Source: Gemmatimonadota bacterium (GTDB taxonomy: Bacteria > Gemmatimonadota > Gemmatimonadetes > Longimicrobiales > Longimicrobiaceae). From it: a stretch of 13,383 bases of DNA. Both the position numbers and the translations under genes were made by a program. Positions 1,300 through 13,235 of this stretch are shown here, piece by piece (the first letter of the stretch is position 1; each line of letters begins with the position of its first letter). Location of the stretch: the NCBI GenBank assembly GCA_019240375.1, contig JAFAYN010000173.1:1-13383 (forward strand). Direction: 5' to 3'. A model generated the notes under the pieces. The model searched no databases. It was not told the DNA's origin and was given only the letters and a program-made list of their open reading frames with translations.

Positions 1300-2268
1300 C
1301 TACTCCGCCGCGCCCGTGGTCGCTTCCTTCTGCGGGGCGGCGCCGGGACGGTGGAGCCCCAGCCGGGTCGGGCCGCCTCCCGGGGAGGAGCGGCGCATCA
1401 TGCGGAACAGGCGCCAGAGGATCCAGAGCACCACCCCCAGCGGGACCAGGAAGCCGAGCGCGGCGATGAACCCCGCGACGAAGCCGACGAAGTTGCGCCA
1501 GGCGTCACGGAACGCCTCGACGATCGGATTGGTCCCCGGCTGGTCGGCTCCGACCACCGGAACCGGCTCGTGCAGGTTCACCGTCAGGGTGCTCATCGCC
1601 ACGCGGCTGCGCAGGTAGCGGATCCGCCCCTCGTAGCGGTCGATCTCCTCGCGCACCCGGGCCAGCTCGCGCTCCACCGCCAGCACGTCCTCCAGCTTCC
1701 CGGTGCGGGTCGCCAGCAGCTCCACCAGGCGGGCTTCCAGCCGGCGCGCGTTGGCGACGCGGGCGCTCACGTCCACGAACTCCTCCCCCGCATCCTCGGC
1801 GGTGACGTTCACCGACTCCACCTTCCCCAGCGGGCGGAGGCCGCCGACCAGCGCGTCGAAGCGCGCGGCGGGGACCTTGATCTCCAGCGACGCCTTGCGC
1901 GCCTCGTTCTCCCCCGTGCTCATGGAGGTGTTGGCGACGAACCCGCCGGAGGCCGCGGCCAACTGGCGCACCCGCGCGATGGCCGGCTCCAGCGAATCCA
2001 CCCGCAGCGTCGCCTCGCCGTTGCGGATGATCATGGTAGGGATGGTGACCGAGTCGGTCCTCGACGCGCTGGCGGGGAGGTCGGGGGCGGACGCGTCCGT
2101 CTTCGCCTCCGCTCCCGCGGCCACGCCCTGGGGCGGGGCGGGGGCGGATGCCGAAGCGTTTCCCTGGGAGACCTCGGCGTAATCCACGGCCTTTTCCGTC
2201 CTCGGGCTCCCACCGCCGCAGGCTGTGAGGAGGAGGAGCGCGAGCGCTGCTACGGTGGAGTTTCGCAT
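1300..2268 (-). CDS. DUF4349 domain-containing lipoprotein with C-terminal membrane helix
   Basis: The product has 322 aa and begins MRNSTVAALALLLL, followed by the lipobox LTAC with Cys17 as the predicted lipidation site. A low-complexity Ala/Pro/Ser linker (about 20-70) precedes the DUF4349 domain (about 75-290). This has a beta-rich start (IRNGEATLRVDSLEPAI), the stretch ASLEIKVPAARFDAL, a charged heptad-like helix at about 172-222 likely to form a coiled coil, and a hydrophobic segment at 259-288, followed by an arginine-rich cytoplasmic-type tail. This architecture is typical of DUF4349 proteins, which have no established biochemical function. The gene stands alone, divergent from the TetR regulator and convergent with the glycosylhydrolase. 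The ATG at 2268 is chosen because the signal peptide begins exactly there; no strong Shine-Dalgarno sequence precedes it. Confidence 0.88.
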   Translation of the reverse strand: MRNSTVAALALLLLTACGGGSPRTEKAVDYAEVSQGNASASAPAPPQGVAAGAEAKTDASAPDLPASASRTDSVTIPTMIIRNGEATLRVDSLEPAIARVRQLAAASGGFVANTSMSTGENEARKASLEIKVPAARFDALVGGLRPLGKVESVNVTAEDAGEEFVDVSARVANARRLEARLVELLATRTGKLEDVLAVERELARVREEIDRYEGRIRYLRSRVAMSTLTVNLHEPVPVVGADQPGTNPIVEAFRDAWRNFVGFVAGFIAALGFLVPLGVVLWILWRLFRMMRRSSPGGGPTRLGLHRPGAAPQKEATTGAAE

Positions 2269-2406: not shown

Positions 2407-2427
2407 CACCGAACACCGTTCGGCGAG
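2405..2427. promoter_or_regulatory. Probable TetR operator, site 1 (overlaps promoter start region)
   Basis: An inverted repeat with ten-base arms around a three-base centre: CTCaCCGAAC, ACC, GTTCGGcGAG, with one mismatched pair. The core CCGAAC-ACC-GTTCGG is perfect. Size and symmetry suit a TetR dimer, and the site covers the end of the -10 element and the predicted start point, so binding there would block transcription of the tetR gene and the genes after it. That this TetR is the ligand is inferred from adjacency and from the second copy at 2475-2490. Confidence 0.65.
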
Positions 2428-2474: not shown

Positions 2475-2490
2475 CACCGAACAGCGTTCG
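2475..2490. promoter_or_regulatory. Probable TetR operator, site 2 (in tetR leader)
   Basis: CACCGAACAGCGTTCG matches site 1 at 15 of 16 positions (2407-2422 there). The palindromic core is CGAAC-AGC-GTTCG. Its centre lies 68 bases from that of site 1 and it ends 15 bases before the tetR ATG, where a ribosome binding site would normally be. A second dimer here could act as a roadblock or reinforce repression. It has fewer symmetric bases than site 1, so it is probably the weaker site. Confidence 0.6.
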
Positions 2491-2505: not shown

Positions 2506-3117
2506 ATGCCCGCTCGCACCGTCCGTGAGGAAGCCGACCTGCGCACGCAGACGCTGGATGCCGCGCGCAGCCTGATCGCGGAGCGCGGGCACCGCGACCT
2601 GTCCATGCGCGAGATCGCGCGGGCGGTGGGGTGCTCGGTGAGCTCGCTGTACCTGTACTTCGAGAGCCGCGACGCGCTGATCCACACGCTGATCGACGAG
2701 GGGTTCCAGCGGTGGTACGACGAGCAGCTCGCGCTCAACGAGCGCTGGCTCGACCCGTGGGCACGATTGGAGGCGGCGGCGCGGCGGTACGTGGAGTTCG
2801 GGGTGGAGAACCCGGAGCTGTACGAGATCATGTACATGTTCCACCCCCGCTCGCTGGAGCGACTGCCGAAGGAATTGTACCGCCGCATCCGGCGCAGCCT
2901 GGACCTGACCGCGGCGAACGTGCTGGCGTGCGCGGCGCCGGGCGGGGCGATGACCGAGGCGGACGCGCGCACCGTGGCCGCGGCGGCGTGGGCCACGCTG
3001 CACGGGGTGGTTTCCACCCTGCTGACGCACCGGCTCGATTCGCGGATCGACCGGGCGGGGTACGTGGACCGGGCGGTGCGGATGGTGATGGACGGAGTGA
3101 GGGCGTGCGCCGGGTGA
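2506..3117 (+). CDS. TetR/AcrR family transcriptional regulator, probable local fad-operon repressor
   Basis: The product has 203 aa. The N-terminal DNA-binding domain (about 10-56) shows the family pattern: a first helix LDAARSLIAERG, then the helix-turn-helix LSMREIARAVGCSVSSLYLYF (about 32-52). The rest is the ligand-binding and dimerisation domain. Its motif WATLHG (162-167) marks the WHG-type C-terminal domain found in many TetR proteins. It is the first gene of the + strand operon, 46 bases ahead of the fadN-like gene, and lies under two near-identical palindromes, so autoregulation and control of the beta-oxidation genes are likely. TetR repressors of fatty acid degradation such as Bacillus FadR bind long-chain acyl-CoA; whether this one senses acyl-CoA or another intermediate is unknown. 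The ATG at 2506 lacks a clear Shine-Dalgarno sequence but places the HTH domain at the expected distance from the N-terminus. Confidence 0.93.
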   Translation: MPARTVREEADLRTQTLDAARSLIAERGHRDLSMREIARAVGCSVSSLYLYFESRDALIHTLIDEGFQRWYDEQLALNERWLDPWARLEAAARRYVEFGVENPELYEIMYMFHPRSLERLPKELYRRIRRSLDLTAANVLACAAPGGAMTEADARTVAAAAWATLHGVVSTLLTHRLDSRIDRAGYVDRAVRMVMDGVRACAG

Positions 3118-3163
3118 GGCGCGCGTCCGCCGGGGATTCTTGAACCTTTACGTGAACGGATCC

Positions 3164-5476
3164 ATGCGCATTCGAAAGCTGGGCGTGGTGGGCGCGGGGA
3201 CGATGGGCGGCGGGATCGCGGCGCTGGCGGCCTCGGCCGGGGTGCCGGTGGTGCTGCTGGACGTCCCCGGCGAGCCGGGGCGGAGCGGGCCCGCGCAGGG
3301 GGGGCTGCAGCGGCAGGTGAAGGCGAAGCCGGCGGCGTTCATGGACACCGGCCGCGCGAGCCTGGTGCGGACCGGGAACACCGAGGACGACCTGGAGCTG
3401 CTGGCCGACTGCGACTGGATCGTCGAGGCGATCATCGAGCAGCCGGCGCCCAAGCAGGCGCTCTTCGCGCGGCTGGAGGAGATCCTGAAGCCCGACGCCG
3501 TGGTCGCCTCGAACACCTCGGGGATCCCGATGCACGTGCTGGTGGAGGGGCGCTCGGAGCGCTTCCGGCGCAACTTCGTGGGGACGCACTTCTTCAGCCC
3601 CGTGCGCTACATGCACCTGCTGGAGCTGATCCCCACGGCGGACACCTCGCCCGAGGCGCTGGCGGTGGTGACAAGGTTCGCGGAGCGGGTGCTCGGCAAA
3701 GGAACGGTGGTGGCCAGGGACGCCCCCGGCTTCATCGCCAACCGGCTGGGGGTGAAGGGGATGGTCGGCACGCTCCGGCAGATGGAGGCGAACGGCCTGA
3801 CCATCGACGAGGTGGACGCCCTGACGGGTCCTCTGATCGGACGGCCGGGCTCGGCCACCTTCCGCACCGGCGACATCTCAGGGCTGGACGTGCTCGCCCA
3901 CGTGTCGGCGGGGCTGGCGCAGACCACCGGCGAGGACTTCGCCCTCCCGGAGTGGACGCAGCGGATGGTGACGAACAAGCAGCTCGGCGACAAGACGGGG
4001 GGCGGCTTCTACCGCAAGCAGGGGAAGGAGATCTCCACCTTCGACTACACCACCGGCGAGTACGTCCCGCAGCGCAAGCCGGACGACCCGGAGCTGGGGC
4101 GGCTGGGCAGGCTCCCCCTCGCGGAGCGGATCAGGGCGGTGCAGGGGCTCCAGGGGAAGTACGGCGACTTCGTGCGCCGGGTGCTGCTGGAGAACGCCCA
4201 CTACGCGCTGACCACCTCCCCCGAGCTGGCGTACGACGTGGTGGCGGTGGACCGGGCGATGGAGTGGGGGTACGGGCACGAGGCAGGTCCCTTCCGCGTC
4301 ATGGACATGATCGGCGTGGACACCCTGCGCGCCGGCTTCCGCGAGCTGGGGCTGGACGAGCCGGAGCTGCTGGGGAAGGCGACGGAGGGGTTCTACCGCC
4401 AGGGTGCCGAGGGGGAGGAGTACCTGGGCTTCGACGGGAGCTACCACCCGGTGCCGCCGGCCGCCGAGGGGGCCATCAAACTGGCCGCGCTGGCGTCGCG
4501 GCCGGGGAAGGTGCTGGAGTCCAACGAGGGGGCGCGGCTCCTGGACCTCGGCGACGGCGTGGCGCTGCTGGAGTTCCGCTCCAAGATGAACACGCTGGGC
4601 GAGCCGGTGATGCGGATGCTGGAAACGGCGCTGGCGCGGGTGGAGCGCGACGGGCTGGAGGGGCTGGTGATCGGCAACGACGACCCGCGCGCCTTTTCGG
4701 CCGGGGCCGACCTGACCGGGCCGGCCGCGCTGCTGCAGAGCGGCGACTGGAAGGCGCTGGACGGGGTGGTGCGCGGCTTCCAGGACGCGGTGCAGAGCAT
4801 CCGGCGCGCCCCCTTCCCGGTGGTGGTTGCGCCGCACGGGATGACGCTGGGCGGCGGGTGCGAGATGACGCTGCACGCCGACGCGGTGCAGGCGGCCGCC
4901 GAGCTGTACGTGGGGCTGGTGGAGGCCGGGGTGGGGCTCCTCCCCGGCGGCGGCGGGACCAAGGAACTGCTCTTCCGCTTCGTCGGCGAGCTGGAGCCGT
5001 ACCCGGAAGCCGACTCGTTCGAGGCGGTGAAGCGCGCCTTCCAGCTGATCGCCCTGGCGGCCACCAGCACCAGCGCGCTCGACGCCCGCAACAAGGGGTT
5101 CCTCCGCGACCGTGACCAGGTCTCCATGAACCGGGACCTGCTGATCGCCGACGCCAAGCGCCGCGTGCTCTCCCTCGCCCCCGGCTACGTCCCCCCGGTC
5201 CCGCGCACCATCCGAGCGCTGGGGAAGGACGGGCTGGGGAACCTCAAGTACGCCCTCTTCTCCTTCCACGAGGCGGGGCAGGCGAGCGACCACGACGTGC
5301 GGATCGGGCACGAGATCGCCTACGTCCTGTGCGGCGGCGACGGCCCGCCGCGGACCGTGACCGAGCAGGACGTCCTCGACCTGGAGCGCGAGTCGTTCCT
5401 GAAGCTGCTCGGCACGAAGGAAACGCAGGAGCGGATCGCGTACACGCTCAAGACCGGGAAGCCGCTGCGCAACTGA
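3164..5476 (+). CDS. fadN: 3-hydroxyacyl-CoA dehydrogenase / enoyl-CoA hydratase, FadN type
   Basis: This 770-aa bifunctional cytoplasmic enzyme hydrates trans-2-enoyl-CoA and oxidises the 3-hydroxyacyl-CoA with NAD+. The dehydrogenase comes first: nucleotide loop GAGTMGGGIA (10-19) with Asp33 ending strand 2, SNTSG (116-120), the catalytic pair His142 and Glu154 in GTHFFSP...LLELI, and Asn193 in PGFIANR. The C-terminal dehydrogenase region runs to about 410. The crotonase domain follows (about 455-650), with FSAGADL (511-517) for the oxyanion hole, GGGCEM giving Glu567, and GLVEAGVGLLPGGGG giving Glu587, so both catalytic glutamates are present. This order is that of Bacillus FadN (about 790 aa), the reverse of Escherichia FadB, and the C-terminal GKPLRN also fits FadN. 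The ATG at 3164 is preferred over the in-frame TTG at 3140 and GTG at 3152, because it puts the Rossmann strand at residue 5. fadA follows after 40 bases. Confidence 0.93.
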   Translation: MRIRKLGVVGAGTMGGGIAALAASAGVPVVLLDVPGEPGRSGPAQGGLQRQVKAKPAAFMDTGRASLVRTGNTEDDLELLADCDWIVEAIIEQPAPKQALFARLEEILKPDAVVASNTSGIPMHVLVEGRSERFRRNFVGTHFFSPVRYMHLLELIPTADTSPEALAVVTRFAERVLGKGTVVARDAPGFIANRLGVKGMVGTLRQMEANGLTIDEVDALTGPLIGRPGSATFRTGDISGLDVLAHVSAGLAQTTGEDFALPEWTQRMVTNKQLGDKTGGGFYRKQGKEISTFDYTTGEYVPQRKPDDPELGRLGRLPLAERIRAVQGLQGKYGDFVRRVLLENAHYALTTSPELAYDVVAVDRAMEWGYGHEAGPFRVMDMIGVDTLRAGFRELGLDEPELLGKATEGFYRQGAEGEEYLGFDGSYHPVPPAAEGAIKLAALASRPGKVLESNEGARLLDLGDGVALLEFRSKMNTLGEPVMRMLETALARVERDGLEGLVIGNDDPRAFSAGADLTGPAALLQSGDWKALDGVVRGFQDAVQSIRRAPFPVVVAPHGMTLGGGCEMTLHADAVQAAAELYVGLVEAGVGLLPGGGGTKELLFRFVGELEPYPEADSFEAVKRAFQLIALAATSTSALDARNKGFLRDRDQVSMNRDLLIADAKRRVLSLAPGYVPPVPRTIRALGKDGLGNLKYALFSFHEAGQASDHDVRIGHEIAYVLCGGDGPPRTVTEQDVLDLERESFLKLLGTKETQERIAYTLKTGKPLRN

Positions 5477-5516: not shown

Positions 5517-6692
5517 ATGCCCAATGCAGTGATCGTGTCCGCCGCGCGCAGCGCGGTGGCCCGGGGGAAGGCGGACGGCGCGCTCGCCGCGGCTGGCGTC
5601 ACCCCGGTGGACCTGGCGGGGGAGGTGCTGCGCGAGGCGGTGGCGCGCGCCGGGGTGGACGTGGGGGAGATCGACGACGTGGTGCTCGGGTGTGCCATGC
5701 CGGAGGGGCCGCAGGGGCTGAACATCGCCCGGAACGCGGCGCTGCGGGCCGGCTTCCCAGTGGACTCGTCGGCGGCTACGGTGAACCGCTTCTGCTCGTC
5801 GGGGCTGCAGACGGTGGCCCAGGCGACGCAGGCGGTGATGAGCGGGATGCAGGACGTGGTGGTGGCGGGCGGGGTGGAGATGATGAGCCAGGTGCCGATG
5901 TCCGGCTTCGTGACGCGCCTCCACCCGGAGCTGACGGAGTCGTACATCGGGATGGGCTTCACGGCCGAGCGGGTTGCCGAGCGCTACCACGTCGACCGCG
6001 AGGACCAGGACGCCTTCGCGCTGGAAAGCCAGCGGCGCGCGGCGGTGGCGCTGGAGAACGGCGCCTTCGCCGGGCAGATCGTCCCCATCCACCTCCAGAA
6101 GGTCCGGTGGAACGGGACGGAAAAGACCGTGGAGGAAGCCGTGTTCGACCGCGACGAGCTGCCGCGCGCCGACGCCTCCCTCGAGGGGCTGGCGAAGCTG
6201 AAGCCGGCCTTCAAGACCAACGGCACCGTGACCGCCGGGAACGCCAGCCCGTACTCGGACGGGGCGGCGGCGCTGGTAGTGATGAACGCCGAGAAGGCGT
6301 CGGCGGCGGGGATCAGGCCCCTCGCCCGTCTCATCACCTACGCGGTGGCGGGGATCGACCCGGACATCATGGGCGTGGGCCCGATCATCGCCATCCCCAA
6401 GGCGCTGAAGAAGGCGGGGATGACGCTCGACCAGATCGACCTGTTCGAGTTCAACGAGGCGTTCGCGGCCCAGGCGCTGGCCGTGTCCCGCGAGCTGAAG
6501 ATGGACATGAGCCGGGTCAACGTGAACGGCGGTGCCATCGCCCTCGGCCACCCGCTCGGCGCCACCGGGGCCAAGCTCAGCACGCAGCTCATCTACGAGC
6601 TGCGCCTTCGCGGCGGCGGGATCGGGATGGTGACCATGTGTGTGGGCGGTGGGATGGGCGCGGCCGGGATCTTCGAGGTCTTCCCGGAATAA
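5517..6692 (+). CDS. fadA: Acetyl-CoA C-acyltransferase (3-ketoacyl-CoA thiolase)
   Basis: The 391-aa product has the normal length for a degradative thiolase, which cleaves 3-ketoacyl-CoA with CoA to acetyl-CoA and a shortened acyl-CoA. The nucleophile is Cys93 in NRFCSSGLQ. The other active-site blocks are NEAF (313-316), His345 in GGAIALGHPLGATG, and Cys375 in MVTMCVGGGMG. All are intact, so the enzyme should be active. It follows the fadN-like gene, its expected partner: FadN-type proteins and thiolase act consecutively and are encoded together in Bacillus. A biosynthetic acetoacetyl-CoA thiolase is less likely given this neighbourhood, although short-chain activity cannot be excluded from sequence. 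No promoter is visible in the 40-base gap before it, consistent with cotranscription. Confidence 0.94.
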   Translation: MPNAVIVSAARSAVARGKADGALAAAGVTPVDLAGEVLREAVARAGVDVGEIDDVVLGCAMPEGPQGLNIARNAALRAGFPVDSSAATVNRFCSSGLQTVAQATQAVMSGMQDVVVAGGVEMMSQVPMSGFVTRLHPELTESYIGMGFTAERVAERYHVDREDQDAFALESQRRAAVALENGAFAGQIVPIHLQKVRWNGTEKTVEEAVFDRDELPRADASLEGLAKLKPAFKTNGTVTAGNASPYSDGAAALVVMNAEKASAAGIRPLARLITYAVAGIDPDIMGVGPIIAIPKALKKAGMTLDQIDLFEFNEAFAAQALAVSRELKMDMSRVNVNGGAIALGHPLGATGAKLSTQLIYELRLRGGGIGMVTMCVGGGMGAAGIFEVFPE

Positions 6693-6717: not shown

Positions 6718-7968
6718 ATGGACTTCGGCCTTTCCCCCCGCGCGGCGGACCTCCGGGAGCGGGTCCGCGCCTTCATCCGCGAGCAGGTGATGCCGGTGGA
6801 GGAGGAGCACTTCCGCCGGCTCGCCGCGAGTGGCGAGGGCGGCGACTGGACCCGGTGGACCGTTTCGCCGGAGGTGGAGGGGCTGAAGTCGCGGGCCCGG
6901 GCCGAGGGGCTGTGGAACCTGTTCCTCCCCGACCCGGAGCTGGGGGCGGGACTCACCACGGTGGAGTACGCGCCGCTGGCCGAGGAGATGGGGAGGAGCT
7001 TCCTGGCGCCGGAGGTCTTCAACTGCAACGCCCCCGACACGGGGAACATGGAGGTGCTCTGGCACTACGGCTCGCCGGAGCAGAAGGAGCGCTGGCTGAC
7101 GCCGCTCCTGGAGGGGCGGATCCGCTCGGCGTTCTGCATGACCGAACCGGACGTCGCCTCGTCCGACGCCACCAACATGCGGGCGACCGCCGTGGTGGAG
7201 GGGGACGAGGTGGTGCTGAACGGAAAGAAGTGGTGGTCCACGGGGATCGGCCACCCGGAGTGCCGGGTGGCCATCTTCATGGGCCTCACCGACCCCGCCG
7301 CCGACCGGCACCGGCGGCACAGCATGGTGCTGGTCCCGCTGGACACGCCGGGGGTGACCGTCCGGCGGATGCTGTCGGTGTTCGGCGACTTCGACCCGCC
7401 GTACGGCCACGGCGAGGTGTGGTTCGAGGAGGCGCGGGTGCCCGTCTCCAGCGTGATCACGGGGCCGGGGCGCGGGTTCGAGATCGCGCAGGGGCGGCTG
7501 GGGCCGGGGCGCGTCCACCACTGCATGCGCTGCATCGGCGCGGCGGAGCGGGCCTTACAGCTGATGGTGGAGCGGGGGATGCGTCGCGTCGCCTTCGGGA
7601 AGCCGCTGGTGAAGCTGGACGGGAACCGGGAGCGGATCGCCGAGTTGCGCATCGCCATCGACCAGGCGCGGCTGCTGACGCTGTACGCGGCGTGGAAGCT
7701 GGACCGGGAGGGGCCCCGCGCCGCGCTCGCGGAGGTGTCGGCGATCAAGGTGGTGGCGCCCAACGTCCTCCAGCGCGTGGCGGACGAGGCGATCCAGCTG
7801 TACGGCGGCGCGGGCGTCTCGACCGACGCGCCGCTGACCGCGCTCTTCGCGCAGGCGCGGGCGCTGCGCATCGCGGACGGGCCGGACGCGGTGCACCGGG
7901 CGGTGGTCGCCCGGGTGGAGCTGGCGAAGTACGCATCGCAGGATCGCCAGGGAAAGGGGGAGGAATGA
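6718..7968 (+). CDS. Acyl-CoA dehydrogenase, ACAD10/ACAD11-like (LvaC/FadE2-like)
   Basis: The 416-aa flavoprotein has the three-part acyl-CoA dehydrogenase fold: helical N-domain (1-135), beta-barrel starting at AFCMTEPDVASSD (138-150), and helical C-domain (about 250-405). GRLGPGRVHHCMRCIG (259-274) and IQLYGGAGVSTDAPL (359-373) are characteristic of the subfamily containing human ACAD10/11 and bacterial LvaC. At the place of the catalytic Glu of medium-chain ACAD, in the final RxxxIYEGT-like block, it has Asp387 in RIADGPDAVH. The ATG at 6718 is chosen because the protein then begins MDFGLSPRAADL, a normal ACAD start; the in-frame GTG at 6640 would lie inside fadA. The gene sits 25 bases after fadA and overlaps the SDR by four bases. 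A kinase of the matching family lies two genes on, so it may dehydrogenate ordinary acyl-CoAs or, like LvaC, eliminate phosphate from a 4-phosphoacyl-CoA. Confidence 0.9.
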   Translation: MDFGLSPRAADLRERVRAFIREQVMPVEEEHFRRLAASGEGGDWTRWTVSPEVEGLKSRARAEGLWNLFLPDPELGAGLTTVEYAPLAEEMGRSFLAPEVFNCNAPDTGNMEVLWHYGSPEQKERWLTPLLEGRIRSAFCMTEPDVASSDATNMRATAVVEGDEVVLNGKKWWSTGIGHPECRVAIFMGLTDPAADRHRRHSMVLVPLDTPGVTVRRMLSVFGDFDPPYGHGEVWFEEARVPVSSVITGPGRGFEIAQGRLGPGRVHHCMRCIGAAERALQLMVERGMRRVAFGKPLVKLDGNRERIAELRIAIDQARLLTLYAAWKLDREGPRAALAEVSAIKVVAPNVLQRVADEAIQLYGGAGVSTDAPLTALFAQARALRIADGPDAVHRAVVARVELAKYASQDRQGKGEE

Positions 7969-8795
7969 AGGGGAAGCGGATCTTCGTCACCGGCGGTGCC
8001 TCGGGGCTGGGGCGGGCGCTCGCGGAGCGCTACGCGCGGGCGGGGTGGCGCGCCTGTATCGGCGACGTCAACGAGGAGCGCGGCACCGAGACCGTAGCCG
8101 CGCTGCGGGTGCTGTCGGGCGACGGCCACTTCCTGCGCTGCGACGTCACCCGGGAAGCCGACCTCCAGGCGGCGGCCGACTGGCTGGAGCGGGAGTGGGG
8201 CGGGGTGGACGTGGTGGTGAACAACGCGGGCGTCGCCATCGGCGGAGGGATCACCGAGGTGCCGATCTCCGACTGGGAGTGGATTGTGGACGTCAACCTC
8301 CTGGGGGTGGCGCGCGGGTGCAGGGTGTTCACGCCGCTCCTCCGCCGCGGGGGCGGGGGACACCTGGTCAATGTGGCCTCGCTGGCGGGGCTGGTGCACA
8401 TGCCGCAGATGTCGGCCTACAACGCCACCAAAGCGGCGGTGGTGGCGCTCTCCGAGACGCTGTACCTGGAGCTGGCGGGCGACGGGATCGGGGTGTCGGT
8501 GGTGTGCCCGGCCTTCTTCCGCACCAACCTGACCGAGTCGCTGCGCGCCGGGAACCCGGAGGTGGACGCCCTCACCCGCCGCCTGGTCAACCAGGCGAAG
8601 CGCGGCGCCGACGAGATCGCGGAGATCGTGTACCGGGGGGTGGAGCGCGGCGAGTTCCGCATCCTCACCGACCCGGAGGGCCGGGTGGCGTGGCGGCTCA
8701 AGCGGCTGGCGCCCTTCTCCGTCTACGCGCGGCTGATGGCCCGCACCGCGCAGCGGTTCATGGGCGGCTCCGGCGGGAAGCGCCCCGGTGGCTGA
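7965..8795 (+). CDS. Short-chain dehydrogenase/reductase (classical SDR)
   Basis: The product has 276 aa. Visible SDR motifs are the cofactor loop TGGASGLG (9-16), NNAG (86-89), Asn111, Ser139, and Tyr152-x3-Lys156 in YNATK, so the full catalytic tetrad is present. Asp34 at the end of the second strand (CIGDVNEE) suggests NAD(H) rather than NADP(H). The last 40 residues form a basic, amphipathic-looking tail (WRLKRLAPFSVYARLMARTAQRF) beyond the core fold. Its ATG lies in the ATGA shared with the acyl-CoA dehydrogenase stop, so the two are probably translationally coupled; GGGGGAGG precedes it closely. By context it could interconvert a 4-keto and a 4-hydroxy acyl-CoA, as LvaD does, or oxidise a side-chain alcohol. 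The substrate is inference; the fold and cofactor sites are clear. Confidence 0.9.
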   Translation: MKGKRIFVTGGASGLGRALAERYARAGWRACIGDVNEERGTETVAALRVLSGDGHFLRCDVTREADLQAAADWLEREWGGVDVVVNNAGVAIGGGITEVPISDWEWIVDVNLLGVARGCRVFTPLLRRGGGGHLVNVASLAGLVHMPQMSAYNATKAAVVALSETLYLELAGDGIGVSVVCPAFFRTNLTESLRAGNPEVDALTRRLVNQAKRGADEIAEIVYRGVERGEFRILTDPEGRVAWRLKRLAPFSVYARLMARTAQRFMGGSGGKRPGG

Positions 8796-9876
8796 GACCC
8801 GCCCGGGCGAGGAGCTGGACGCCGCGGCGGTGGACGCCTGGCTCCGCCCCCGCGTCCCCGGTCTGTGCGGCACGCCCCGGGTGACGCAGTACTCCGGCGG
8901 CGCCTCCAACTGGACGTACCGGCTGGAGTACGAGAGCCACGACCTGGTGCTGCGCCGCCCCCCGGCGGGGACCCGGGCCCGCTCGGCGCACGACATGGGG
9001 CGGGAGTTCCGGGTGCAGCGGGCGCTGCGGCCGGCGTACCCGTACGTCCCGGAGATGGTCGCCTTCTGCGACGACGCCTTGGTGATCGGGTGCGACTTCT
9101 ACGTGATGCGTCGCATTCCGGGGATCATCCCCCGGGCGCGGATGCCGGAGGCGGCGCGGCTCGACGCGGCCGGAAACCGCCGGCTCTGCCTGGACGTGAT
9201 TGACCGGCTGGTGGAGCTGCACCGGGTGGACGCGCGGGCCGTGGGGCTGGAGGGGCTGGGGAAGGGGGCGGGGTACGCGCACCGGCAGGTCGAGGGGTGG
9301 AGCGACCGCTACGCGAAGGCGCGCACCTGGAACGTCCCGCGCTTCGGCCGGGTGATCGCCTGGCTGCGCGACCACACCCCGGACGACGTCGCCACCTGCG
9401 TGATCCACAACGACTTTCGCCTGGACAACGTGGTACTGGACCCGGACGATCCCACCCGCGTGGTGGGGGTGCTGGACTGGGAGATGGCGACGCTGGGCGA
9501 CCCGCTGATGGACCTGGGGAATTCGCTCGCCTACTGGGTGCAGGCCGACGACGACTTCGTCGTCCGCTCCATGCGCCGCCAGCCGACGCACCTCCCCGGG
9601 ATGCTGACCCGGCGCGAGGTCGTCGACTACTACTGCGACCGGATGGGAATGGCGCCCGCCAACTGGACCTTCTACGAGGTGTACGGGCTGTTCCGGCTGG
9701 CCGTGATCGCGCAGCAGATCTACTACCGCTACCACCACGGGCAGACTCGCAATCCCGCCTTTCGCCGCTTCTGGCTGATGGCGCACTACCTGGACTGGCG
9801 GTGCCGCCGGATGATCCGGGCTTCGGGGCATCCTCGTGGTCGGTCGGCGGGTGCTCCTCCTCCGGCGGGTGCGTAA
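8788..9876 (+). CDS. APH-family phosphotransferase (ACAD10/11 kinase-domain-like, LvaA-like)
   Basis: The 362-aa product resembles aminoglycoside phosphotransferases in fold but belongs to the acyl-CoA-linked branch. SGGASN (36-41) is the nucleotide loop, and LVLRRPP (53-59) has arginines where many kinases have the ATP-binding lysine. SAHDMGREF (66-74) is a branch-typical block with Glu73. HNDFRLDN (207-214) holds catalytic Asp209 and metal ligand Asn214, and VLDWE (228-232) gives the DFG-like Asp230. ACAD11 carries such a domain fused to its dehydrogenase domain; here the two are separate genes. The start is GTG at 8788, overlapping the SDR stop by eight bases with GGGAAG seven bases upstream; the next in-frame ATG would remove the nucleotide loop. 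Antibiotic resistance is unlikely given the operon. The expected substrate is a hydroxyacyl-CoA. The residues after about 340 are low-complexity (GRSAGAPPPAGA). Confidence 0.88.
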   Translation: MAETRPGEELDAAAVDAWLRPRVPGLCGTPRVTQYSGGASNWTYRLEYESHDLVLRRPPAGTRARSAHDMGREFRVQRALRPAYPYVPEMVAFCDDALVIGCDFYVMRRIPGIIPRARMPEAARLDAAGNRRLCLDVIDRLVELHRVDARAVGLEGLGKGAGYAHRQVEGWSDRYAKARTWNVPRFGRVIAWLRDHTPDDVATCVIHNDFRLDNVVLDPDDPTRVVGVLDWEMATLGDPLMDLGNSLAYWVQADDDFVVRSMRRQPTHLPGMLTRREVVDYYCDRMGMAPANWTFYEVYGLFRLAVIAQQIYYRYHHGQTRNPAFRRFWLMAHYLDWRCRRMIRASGHPRGRSAGAPPPAGA

Positions 9877-9953: not shown

Positions 9954-11993
9954 TTACCGCAGGTCGAAGCCCATCACCACGTCGGAGTAGGAGGCTGCGT
10001 ACACCGAGCCGTTGCCGGCGGCGGGGGAGGAGAGGAAGTGCCCCACCGGCAGGCGGTACTGCGTGACGATCCTGCCGTCGTTCGTGTCGAGGATGGACAG
10101 CAGGCCGTTCACGGAGCCGATGCTGACCCTTCCGTCCGCCACCGCCGGGGAGGAGTCGTAGATCACGTTTCCGGTGGCGGCGGTCCACACTTCCTTGCCG
10201 TCCGTCGCGGAGATGCAGCGCACCTCGCCCCTGTCGCCCAGGCAGCCGATGTAGATGCGGTCGTCGACCAGGGCGGGGGAGGAGTACCCCACCTTGTCGC
10301 CCGGCGAGGTGTAGGTCCAGCGCGTTTCGCCCGTCACGGCGTCGAAGGCGTGCAGGACGTTGCCGTTGGCGGGGATGTAGACTGTCCCGCCGCCCACCGT
10401 GGGGCCGCCGATGGCGGGGGAGTAGGCGAACGATTTTTCCGTTCCCGGCTTCCTCCACACCTGCTCGCCCGTGGCGGCGTCCAGCGCGTACACGTGCTTG
10501 TCCCAGGCGCCCAGGTAGATGCGCTCGCCGTCCGTGGCGGCGGGGCTCTGCGAAAAGGCGGAGTCGCTGGGCGGGAGGGTGAACTTCCAGCGGACGGCCC
10601 CCGTCGCCAGGCCCACCCCGTACACGCTCCCGTCGCCCGAGGCGTTGGCGGCGACCCCCTTCGCCACCGCGGCGGAGGCGTAGACGGGGCCGGCCGTGCG
10701 CTGCTTCCAGAGCTGCCTTCCGGTGCGGGCGTCGAAGGCGTAGGCGTACCCGTCGGCGCTCCCCACCACCAGCCGGTCCCCCGCCAGAGTGGGCGAGGAG
10801 TGGCAGTAGCCGCCGGTCATCGCCTTCCAGAGCGGCGCCCCGTCGGCGGCACGGAGGGCGTTGACCGAGCCGTCCATCGCGCTGACGTACAGTACGTCGC
10901 CCAACAGCCGCAGGTGCGACATCACCCCGCCGCTCAGCCGGCGCTCCCAGCGCGGGCACAGCGGCGCGTCCGCAACGCGGACGCGCACCGTCGCCACCTC
11001 CTCGCGACCGTGCTCCCCCGCCCGCAGCGCGAGCACGTTGCTCCCCGCCGCCAGCCCTTCGGTGGGTACCCCGCCCGCCTGCACGGGCGCCCACTTCCCC
11101 TCGTTCCAGCGCGCTTCCCTCACCTCCGCGGGGACACGCACCGGCCTCCCCGCGTCCACCGTGGCGGCGACGGCCCACACCGGGCGCTTTGCTCGCGAGG
11201 GCTTCAGCGGCACCGTGACCAGCGGCTGCGGCTCGGGCTGCTCCTTCGTCCGGCGGAAGAGGCGCACCTCGCCCGCGGCGGGGTCCACGTCCGCACGCAG
11301 GTACGAGCCCTGGTAGAGCCCCTTGCTCATGGTGCAGGCGAGCCCGTCCCAGTCCCAGAGCAGGTCCGCGTGTCCGTGCCCGGTGAGCACCACCTTGACG
11401 TTGTACGGCTCCAGCACGTCGAACAGGGCGCGCTCGTTGTCCACCATAACCGGGGCGCGGCCCGTCCAGTGGTGCGTCACCACGAACACCGGCGTGCGGC
11501 GTCCGACGCGGCGCAGGTCGGCCTCCAGCCAGCGGAGCTGCGCGCTCTCGAAGTGCCCGTAGTGGGAGAGGGGGACGGTGCTGTCCAGCAGCGCGAAGTG
11601 GACCCCGCCATGGTCGAAGGAGCGGAAGGGCGGCCCCACCCGGCTGCGGAAGATCTGCAAGCCCATCGGCGCCCAGCGCACGTCGTGGTTCCCGGGGACG
11701 TGGTGGACCGGGAAGGGGATTCCCTGCAGCACCTTCCCGTACTCGTCGTACTCGCCCGCGAAGGCGTAGTCGGTCACGTCGCCGCCGTTGATCCCGAACG
11801 CCGGGCGTATGGTCCGCGCCATCTCCTCCAGCAGCGCGCGGCACTCGGCGCCGTTGCGGCCGATGGAAACGTGGGTGTCGCTGAAGTGCGTGAAGGTGAA
11901 TGCGGGCGCGACCGGGAGCCAGCGGAAGGCCGGGGCCAGCCCGGTGGCGAGCCCCAGCTTGAGCAGGTCGCGGCGGCTGATCGAGGAGTCCAT
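9954..11993 (-). CDS. Tat-exported calcineurin-like phosphoesterase fused to a PQQ-type beta-propeller
   Basis: The 679-aa product starts with the Tat signal SRRDLLKLGLATG (6-18) and a possible cleavage site near 29-31. The metallophosphoesterase domain (about 32-250) has every expected metal ligand: Asp39 and His41 in SDTH, Asp72 in GGD, Asn102-His103 in GNHD, His174 in THH, and His206/His208 in GHGH. A linker with an Ig-like look follows (about 270-365). The C-terminal region (about 370-679) carries eight copies of a repeat of the form G-x-V-x-A-x-D-x-x-T-G-x-x-x-W, as in PQQ-binding-like or BamB-like propellers. No PQQ-dependent dehydrogenase catalytic domain is seen, so the propeller is probably a binding or scaffolding part. 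The product is expected outside the cytoplasm, acting on an unidentified phosphoester. The start lies 18 bases after the upstream DUF1343 gene, suggesting an operon. Confidence 0.9.
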   Translation of the reverse strand: MDSSISRRDLLKLGLATGLAPAFRWLPVAPAFTFTHFSDTHVSIGRNGAECRALLEEMARTIRPAFGINGGDVTDYAFAGEYDEYGKVLQGIPFPVHHVPGNHDVRWAPMGLQIFRSRVGPPFRSFDHGGVHFALLDSTVPLSHYGHFESAQLRWLEADLRRVGRRTPVFVVTHHWTGRAPVMVDNERALFDVLEPYNVKVVLTGHGHADLLWDWDGLACTMSKGLYQGSYLRADVDPAAGEVRLFRRTKEQPEPQPLVTVPLKPSRAKRPVWAVAATVDAGRPVRVPAEVREARWNEGKWAPVQAGGVPTEGLAAGSNVLALRAGEHGREEVATVRVRVADAPLCPRWERRLSGGVMSHLRLLGDVLYVSAMDGSVNALRAADGAPLWKAMTGGYCHSSPTLAGDRLVVGSADGYAYAFDARTGRQLWKQRTAGPVYASAAVAKGVAANASGDGSVYGVGLATGAVRWKFTLPPSDSAFSQSPAATDGERIYLGAWDKHVYALDAATGEQVWRKPGTEKSFAYSPAIGGPTVGGGTVYIPANGNVLHAFDAVTGETRWTYTSPGDKVGYSSPALVDDRIYIGCLGDRGEVRCISATDGKEVWTAATGNVIYDSSPAVADGRVSIGSVNGLLSILDTNDGRIVTQYRLPVGHFLSSPAAGNGSVYAASYSDVVMGFDLR

Positions 11994-12011: not shown

Positions 12012-13235
12012 TCAGGGATACAGGAGGTACGGCTGGCGGGTGCGGCGGAAGCGCTCCGCGTCGGCGTCCCACTCGCGCAGGAGGCCGCGCACGGTGCCGG
12101 CGTCCACCGCCTTGCGCATCCGGTCCGTCCCGGCTAGCCGGTCGAAGTGCGACGGGAGCCAGCGGAAGTCCCCCGGGTGCGTGCGGCGGATGGTCTCCAG
12201 CAGGAGGAGCGAGGCGGCGACCGGGCGGTACGTCGCGCGGTCGGTCGCCACCAGGCGGACGCCGTGCACCAGCGTGTCCGCGTACTTCCCGTCGCCGGGG
12301 GCGTGCGGGGTGAAGTCCACCTCCTCGAAGCGCACCCCGGGGAGGCGCATCGCGTTCATCGTCCGCGCCACCTCCCCGGAGCGCAGCCAGGGCGCGCCCA
12401 CCTGCTCGAAGGGGTGGTCGCTCCCGCGTCCCGACGACAGGTTGGTCCCCTCGTAGAACACCGTCCCCGGGTAGTGGACGGCCGACTCCAGCCGGGGGAT
12501 GTTGGGCGACGGGGCGACCCAGGGGAGCCCCGTCGCGTCGAACCAGACGTCGCGCCGCCACCCCTCGGCGGGGATCACCGTCAGGTCGGCGCCGATCCCG
12601 AACTCCCGGTTGTACAGGCGCGCCAGCTCCCCCACCGTCATCCCGTGCCGCACCGGGAGCGGGTACATCCCCACGAACGAGGCGTAGGCGGTGTCCAGCA
12701 GGTTCCCCTCCACCACCGTCCCGCCGATCGGGTTCGGGCGGTCGAGGACGACGTACGGGATGTGCGCCTCGGCCGCGGCCTGCATGGTCAGCGCGAGGGT
12801 GTAGATGTAGGTGTAGGTGCGCGACCCCACGTCCTGGATGTCGAAGACCAGCGCGTCCACCCCGCGCAGCATCTCGGGGGTGGGCTTGCGCGTCTCGCCG
12901 TACAGCGAGTGGATGGGGAGGCCGGTGCGCGGGTCCGTCCCCGAGGCCACGCGCTCGCCGGGGGCGGCAGCGCCGCGGATCCCGTGCTCGGGGGAGAAGA
13001 GCGCCACCAGCTTCATCTCCGGCGCGGCGGCCAGCCGGTCGATGGTGCTGGTCCCGGCGCGGTCCACCCCGGTCTGGTTGGTGACCAGGCCGATCCGCTT
13101 CCCCCGGAGCGCGGCGGGCGGGGAGGCGAGGAACACCTCCACCCCGGGGCGCACGGCGGCGCGGGGAGCGGGCAGGGAGGTGCCCGGGGCGCAGGCGGCC
13201 ACCGCCAGGGCGGCGAGTGCGGGAAGGAGTCTCAT
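12012..13235 (-). CDS. namZ: DUF1343 lipoprotein, NamZ-type exo-beta-N-acetylmuramidase family (GH171)
   Basis: The 407-aa product has a lipoprotein signal: MRLLPALAALAVAAC with lipobox VAAC and Cys15. Family signatures are GLVTNQTG (49-56), SPEHGIRG (81-88) with an invariant glutamate, SLYG (110-113), FDIQDVGSRTYTYIYT (131-146), LDRPNPIGG (164-172), and EGTNLSSGRGSDHPFE (262-277). Characterised DUF1343 proteins (NamZ, YbbC in Bacillus) remove MurNAc from non-reducing ends of peptidoglycan fragments, a step in cell-wall recycling. Lipidation would hold this one in a periplasmic or outer membrane position. The symbol rests on family membership only; activity on muropeptides is inferred. The gene is first in a two-gene minus-strand unit with the phosphoesterase. 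The ATG at 13235 begins the signal peptide exactly; no good ribosome binding site precedes it. Confidence 0.88.
   Translation of the reverse strand: MRLLPALAALAVAACAPGTSLPAPRAAVRPGVEVFLASPPAALRGKRIGLVTNQTGVDRAGTSTIDRLAAAPEMKLVALFSPEHGIRGAAAPGERVASGTDPRTGLPIHSLYGETRKPTPEMLRGVDALVFDIQDVGSRTYTYIYTLALTMQAAAEAHIPYVVLDRPNPIGGTVVEGNLLDTAYASFVGMYPLPVRHGMTVGELARLYNREFGIGADLTVIPAEGWRRDVWFDATGLPWVAPSPNIPRLESAVHYPGTVFYEGTNLSSGRGSDHPFEQVGAPWLRSGEVARTMNAMRLPGVRFEEVDFTPHAPGDGKYADTLVHGVRLVATDRATYRPVAASLLLLETIRRTHPGDFRWLPSHFDRLAGTDRMRKAVDAGTVRGLLREWDADAERFRRTRQPYLLYP

Follow-up and report, generated by a model that had tools for sequence, protein, structure and literature searches.

The lva operon of Pseudomonas putida comprises LvaA, LvaB, LvaC, LvaD, LvaE, LvaF, LvaG, and LvaR, of which LvaB is the partner of the kinase, LvaE is an acyl-CoA ligase, LvaF and LvaG form a transporter, and LvaR is a sigma-54 regulator. 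The mammalian enzymes ACAD10 and ACAD11 combine a kinase with an acyl-CoA dehydrogenase (ACAD), and papers published in 2024 and 2025 (PMC11342911, PMC12440821) assigned their chemistry; its bacterial range and regulation are little covered in the literature we found. According to PMC12440821, residues R626, H634, and R637 of mouse ACAD11 bind phosphate and are absent from conventional ACADs, D753 is the catalytic base, and nonconservative changes of R626, H634, or R637 abolish the phosphate step in ACAD10/11. PMC11342911 reports that the ACAD10 domains can be replaced in vitro by bacterial orthologs, proteins from a Burkholderia. Here we analyze a stretch of 13,383 nucleotides from a member of the Gemmatimonadota, family Longimicrobiaceae (contig JAFAYN010000173.1 of assembly GCA_019240375.1; hereafter the window), in which a kinase and an ACAD of these families flank a short-chain dehydrogenase/reductase (SDR), and we propose with good confidence that they belong to a TetR-controlled operon bringing 4-hydroxyacyl-CoAs into beta-oxidation. 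The window spans contig G000:C217 in full, and this contig belongs to a metagenome-assembled genome (MAG, G000) that is 61.9% complete and consists of 632 contigs. The kinase-ACAD chemistry of the ACAD10/11 type is already known; the newer part is the operon and its putative regulon.

An earlier note on this DNA had recognized overlapping ACAD, SDR, and kinase genes within positions 6718-9876, and the three open reading frames (ORFs) are indeed open, overlapping, and on the plus strand. They encode an ACAD10/11-type dehydrogenase of 416 amino acids (6718..7968), a classical SDR of the PRK05650 family with 276 amino acids (7965..8795), and an APH-fold kinase of the LvaA/ACAD11 kinase-domain type with 362 amino acids and a GTG start (8788..9876), the overlaps being 4 bases between ACAD and SDR and 8 bases between SDR and kinase. 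When the 10 window proteins were scanned against Pfam and NCBIfam profile models with curated cut-offs, the block matched Acyl-CoA_dh_N/M/1, adh_short, and APH, every one over its cut-off; the SDR family model reached 366.9 bits (cut-off 297), and the Ser-Tyr-Lys motifs of the SDR were recognized by eye. The operon extends further than the note had drawn it, since the block stands at the end of six genes in the order TetR-FadB-thiolase-ACAD-SDR-kinase. The upstream members, also on the plus strand, are a TetR-family regulator of 203 amino acids (2506..3117; TetR_N, TetR_C_33), a FadB-like 3-hydroxyacyl-CoA dehydrogenase and enoyl-CoA hydratase (ORF 3140..5476; 3HCDH_N, 3HCDH, ECH_1), and an acetyl-CoA C-acyltransferase, or thiolase (5517..6692; Thiolase_N, Thiolase_C; TIGR01930 at 435 bits, cut-off 240.55). 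As measured from the listed ORF ends, the intergenic gaps are only 22 (TetR-FadB), 40 (FadB-thiolase), and 25 bases (thiolase-ACAD), from which we infer a single six-gene transcript; a sigma-70 promoter scan found no promoter. The best NCBIfam model for the FadB-like protein, Staph_FadB, scored 506 bits, under its cut-off of 999, and the start of the protein is probably ATG 3164 rather than the mechanically called TTG 3140, because the former matches the MRIRK start of its relatives. The presence of TetR, FadB, and thiolase genes upstream strengthens the proposed link between 4-hydroxyacyl-CoAs and beta-oxidation: the split bacterial form sits in one operon with the subsequent beta-oxidation steps, and the regulator and operator are testable.

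The kinase and ACAD very probably perform the ACAD10/11 reaction on 4-hydroxyacyl-CoAs, as had been suggested, a reading favored both by the phospho-substrate residues and by the placement of the ACAD in the ACAD11 clade. With residue numbers transferred via an alignment to the 8v3u chain, whose numbering is one lower than the paper's, R260, H268, and R271 of the window ACAD align with R626, H634, and R637 of mouse ACAD11, and D387 aligns with the catalytic D753, a position that is usually Glu, as it is in short-chain acyl-CoA dehydrogenase (SCAD), and that is changed from Asp to Asn in the A* mutant chain 8v3v. Among solved structures the best hits were 4hr3 (E 5e-178), followed by mouse ACAD11 8v3u (E 2e-132), the best ordinary ACAD structure being SCAD 2vig (E 1e-45); sequence identity is 53.6% with mouse ACAD11, 33% with SCAD, and 28.8% and 23.5% with the other ACADs of the same genome. 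All six diagnostic letters (H597, R626, R631, H634, R637, and D753 in mouse ACAD11 numbering) were found in 103 of 115 aligned ACADs, including those of the window and mammalian ACAD11. The 12 rows lacking the full signature are human SCAD, 8 other ACADs from the loci, 1 fragment outside the region, and the 2 own-genome ACADs, of which one is blank at the Asp column. Plasmid ACADs of Massilia and Paraburkholderia keep the signature at 35-36% identity, and this short set of residues seems to separate phosphate-handling from ordinary ACADs even at about 35% identity.

In a tree built from 73 of the aligned ACADs (64 with the signature and 9 without), the 64 signature rows, mammalian ACAD11 included, split off with support 100/96, and the clustering of the window ACAD with kinase-less FadE enzymes, named beforehand as the counter-result, is absent; long-branch warnings were raised, mostly for the 9 non-signature rows and the two plasmid rows. 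An ACAD was found at E <= 1e-120 in 22 of 395 genomes of the phylum. A second ACAD subfamily also bears the full signature, with YDGPD or YDGAD instead of ADGPD, whose first Asp is the catalytic one, and scores of 215-340 bits; it occurs alongside kinases in relatives of the window genome, some Acidobacteriota, and some Myxococcota (rows L118, from the relative G347, L119, L121-L127, L005-L007, L029, and L069).

The kinase motifs described as intact are present as VIHNDFRLDN, with the catalytic D209 and N214, and VLDWE. The best matches among solved structures were 9o56 (E 8e-78), on which a literature search found no paper, and ACAD11 8v3v (E 2e-54), and identity to the mouse ACAD11 kinase is 34.5%. 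Across 104 aligned kinases the helix-C Arg-Glu pair (R72-E73 in the window) is invariant, as are R176, D220, and N225 in ACAD11 numbering, which correspond to R166, D209, and N214 of the window kinase. Although the paper numbers the helix-C Arg as R86, the invariant residue is R84 in the 8v3v chain numbering, two places before the variable column on which R86 falls. A Burkholderia ubonensis kinase is 64.7% identical to that of the window and is not necessarily the ortholog of the Burkholderia protein tested with ACAD10. The kinases nearest to the window's, from Acidobacteriota, pair with the second ACAD type (YDGPD/YDGAD), which suggests that kinases and ACADs have changed partners during evolution. 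Annotation pipelines label such kinases as aminoglycoside phosphotransferases, and the NCBIfam aminoglycoside and macrolide kinase models fall far under their cut-offs for the window protein (APH(3') at 24.5 against 205); the label can thus conceal a probable acyl-CoA kinase.

By analogy with ACAD10/11, as described in PMC12440821 and PMC11342911, the kinase would use ATP to phosphorylate the 4-hydroxyl of a 4-hydroxyacyl-CoA. The ACAD would then hold the 4-phospho-acyl-CoA via R260, H268, and R271 while D387 removes the C2 proton, and a redox cycle of the flavin (FAD) that returns to FAD would release phosphate and yield a 2-enoyl-CoA. FadB would hydrate and oxidize this product, and the thiolase would cleave what results. 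Judging from its position, the SDR probably converts 4-keto- and 4-hydroxyacyl-CoA into each other. Likewise from position, TetR probably represses the operon via two candidate operators and would be released by an acyl-CoA-type ligand.

For comparison we used the best 80 homologous loci from a kinase scan of species genomes that matched at least 593 stretches with at least 570 relatives. The counts are profile-based, with ACAD and SDR thresholds of >200 bits and the ACAD sought on the same strand within 1.6 kb; many of the 80 loci come from Myxococcaceae, so they do not represent independent events. An ACAD accompanies the kinase in 71 of the 80. Among the other nine, three have ACAD and SDR farther upstream (L051, L060, L070), three lie on short contigs (L022, L054, L083), and three have no ACAD in the fetched flank (L026, L058, L080). 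An SDR stands between ACAD and kinase in 25 of the 80 loci. The window TetR found a single match, of 53 bits on the other strand of L080; other TetR-type regulators were spotted by eye near some of the loci. On a Sphingobium plasmid (L195, 5920-11276), genes for a 3-hydroxyacyl-CoA dehydrogenase, ACAD, kinase, and hydrolase occur with a P450 nearby, an independent pairing with beta-oxidation.

The candidate TetR operators share the palindrome CGAAC-N3-GTTCG and lie at 2410..2422 and 2478..2490, the second ending 15 bases before the TetR ATG. The window has these 2 matches against 0.01 expected, and 0 of 200 shuffles reach 2, for a pattern picked after both sites had been seen; they are also the only ones in the incomplete MAG. 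The intergenic region with both palindromes is shared with a divergent DUF4349 gene (1300-2268, minus strand), whose control by them is possible. TetR orthologs of 48-54% identity occur in 4 relatives: G347, of the same genus as the window genome, G032, of the same family, G052, and G380. For counts in relatives we used flanked sites, i.e. the palindrome with flanking C, and fetched about 2.5 to 3.5 kb on each side, contig ends shortening some stretches. The 5 genomes with TetR hold 30 flanked sites in 28.1 Mb, against 21 in 78.9 Mb for 16 genomes without (one-sided rank test, p 0.002). In G347, four of six flanked sites surround an ACAD-kinase-TetR set (C465) and the others precede fadB and a FadE-type ACAD (C30). 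Of the G032 sites, one falls within the gap that separates fadB from the ACAD gene, and another separates TetR from a FadE-type ACAD.

A search of 12 family genomes detected this fadB type in 4, each of them one of the five with a TetR ortholog (hypergeometric 5/495 = 0.010); it was not found in the fifth, G380. FadB of the window shares 66% identity with its counterparts in G347 and G032, and the identity between these two is 77.5%. TetR orthologs adjoin ACAD-kinase pairs in G347 and G052, and both loci also hold a ligase and an SDR: in G347 a hormone-sensitive-lipase-type hydrolase, an AMP-binding acyl-CoA ligase, and an SDR are divergent beside ACAD-kinase-TetR, with two palindrome sites within or near the shared promoter region, and in G052 ACAD and kinase are separated by a ligase 72% identical to that of G347, the set being preceded by TetR and followed by an SDR. 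The ligase of these TetR-linked loci provides the activation step that the window lacks; searches of G000 and G032 at E <= 1e-100 did not detect this type. In G032, fadB and thiolase (minus strand) are divergent from ACAD-SDR-kinase (plus strand), and the kinase groups with Archangium; a single clade with the window kinase was rejected (p-AU of the approximately unbiased test 0.0034, a question asked after the ACAD tree had split them). Therefore, the cassettes beside fadB-thiolase appear to be separate in origin. One tentative reading, somewhat less likely than not, is that a family-level TetR/operator system runs the 4-hydroxyacyl-CoA module within a beta-oxidation regulon, that cassettes were acquired separately beside fadB-thiolase in two genera, and that TetR senses (hydroxy)acyl-CoA. 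If so, the regulon spans fadB, thiolase, FadE-type ACADs, and ACAD-kinase, with acyl-CoA ligase, SDR, and lipase added in relatives. Among the papers listed by literature searches, none was found that describes a TetR controlling such a module.

Several observations weigh against the proposed function and its regulation. Substrate length and stereochemistry cannot be read from the sequence, enzyme activity is predicted, and the window holds no ligase, LvaB, or transporter. The linkage of kinase and ACAD is common and not shown for every signature ACAD, as 5 of the 103 (L128, L129, L135, L136, and L197) have no detected kinase in the fetched stretch; the kinase may lie elsewhere or be too divergent, or the phospho-acyl substrate may have another source. 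Conversely, 7 kinases have no signature ACAD in the fetched stretch, 3 of them on short contigs. A FadB/thiolase neighborhood was found in 0 of the 80 homologous loci, and in 60 of the 80 the gene directly after the kinase encodes a histidine phosphatase (22 of these loci also have the intervening SDR), which is absent after the window kinase. Viewed alongside the HAD domain of ACAD10 and a phosphatase gene of the Pseudomonas citronellolis levulinate cluster (PMC6692424), this suggests a recurrent phosphatase partner, which may limit build-up of the phospho-intermediate. On the regulatory side, the palindrome was chosen after its sites were seen, which makes the chance figure too favorable and the sites in relatives the better test. 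There, only 2 of 8 flanked sites of G032 lie near queried genes, the other six being near genes not recognized as related. The TetR orthologs of G380 and G052 have no exact upstream site, and no queried beta-oxidation or TetR gene was found in the fetched stretch of any flanked site of G052 (9 sites) or G380 (5 sites), the G052 fadB being on the same contig as one site, about 6 kb off. Finally, G305 has 5 sites, with no TetR ortholog found.

Among the alternatives, one concerns the SDR only and is unlikely: rather than admitting 4-keto acids, it would convert S-4-hydroxyacyl-CoA to the R isomer via the 4-ketone for an R-preferring kinase. According to PMC11342911, product formation by the kinase part of ACAD10 was about fourfold higher with R than with S, and SDRs 27-60% identical to that of the window recur in such clusters, but a lone SDR seldom epimerizes, and no second dehydrogenase with the opposite handedness, which the conversion would require, was identified.

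It is improbable that the same kinase-then-elimination chemistry acts on a hydroxyl elsewhere or on another substrate, such as the CoA ester of a hydroxylated isoprenoid or steroid side chain. Related clusters adjoin unlike genes, such as the 3-hydroxyacyl-CoA dehydrogenase, hydrolase, and P450 on the Sphingobium plasmid, so substrates may vary, and the kinase relatives are very numerous (8000 of 8000 scored candidates were homologous). However, the phospho-pocket residues of the window ACAD are identical to those of the mammalian enzymes, which were tested with 4-hydroxyacyl-CoAs, and the neighboring FadB and thiolase point to acyl chains.

We give very little credence to a strict levulinate operon, with the SDR as LvaD and levulinyl-CoA as substrate. 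Kinase, ACAD, and SDR are all there, but a TetR replaces the sigma-54 LvaR. As the earlier note had stated, the block has no acyl-CoA ligase, none being detected among the 10 window proteins scanned, and no LvaB-like gene, for which the operon gaps (22 to 40 bases) are too short; neither LvaR nor LvaF/G is among the scanned proteins. No match to DUF6285, which we take to be the LvaB family, was found in the 62% complete MAG. With LvaE, LvaR, and LvaF/G absent from the window and no LvaB detected there, the cluster does not qualify as a strict lva operon. Plasmid records searched with the kinase and ACAD gave no recognizable lva operon among the matches listed, the kinase search having one Pseudomonas aeruginosa plasmid match at 25% identity. 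Other kinase-ACAD pairs (Paraburkholderia, Massilia) are accompanied by SDRs with only 29-31% identity to that of the window over partial alignments, indicating that more than one SDR type is in use. In favor of a levulinate operon, the P. citronellolis levulinate cluster likewise has no lvaB, according to PMC6692424.

Least credible of all is an ordinary FAD dehydrogenase beside a kinase with another target, such as a drug or small metabolite, which would suit the aminoglycoside phosphotransferase label but is contradicted by the ACAD signature and clade, the kinase-ACAD co-location, and the low scores of the drug-kinase models.

The operon is flanked by genes on the opposite strand, the DUF4349 gene upstream and, downstream, a metallophosphoesterase fused to a PQQ/BamB-like beta-propeller (9954-11993), with a twin-arginine (TAT) signal match slightly under the curated cut-off. 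Beyond it lies a gene for a NamZ-type exo-beta-N-acetylmuramidase (12012-13235, minus strand).

In summary, the window resembles three described or recurrent arrangements. It can be likened by gene content to the P. putida lva operon, which also encodes kinase, ACAD, and SDR together, but has fadB-thiolase and a TetR instead of LvaB, LvaE, LvaF/G, and the sigma-54 LvaR. With mammalian ACAD11 and ACAD10, as described in PMC12440821 and PMC11342911, it shares the kinase and ACAD families with their catalytic and phosphate-binding residues; the mammalian domains form one polypeptide in the order kinase-ACAD, whereas the window has separate genes in the order ACAD-SDR-kinase, has no HAD domain, and adds FadB, thiolase, and TetR. 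Finally, it differs from the ACAD-SDR-kinase-histidine phosphatase clusters of Myxococcus, Zhongshania, Lysobacter, Ideonella, and others (22 of the 80 loci) in carrying FadB and thiolase, seen in none of the 80, and no histidine phosphatase, and shares with them the gene order ACAD-SDR-kinase, the Ideonella SDR and kinase being about 60% and 64% identical, respectively, to those of the window.

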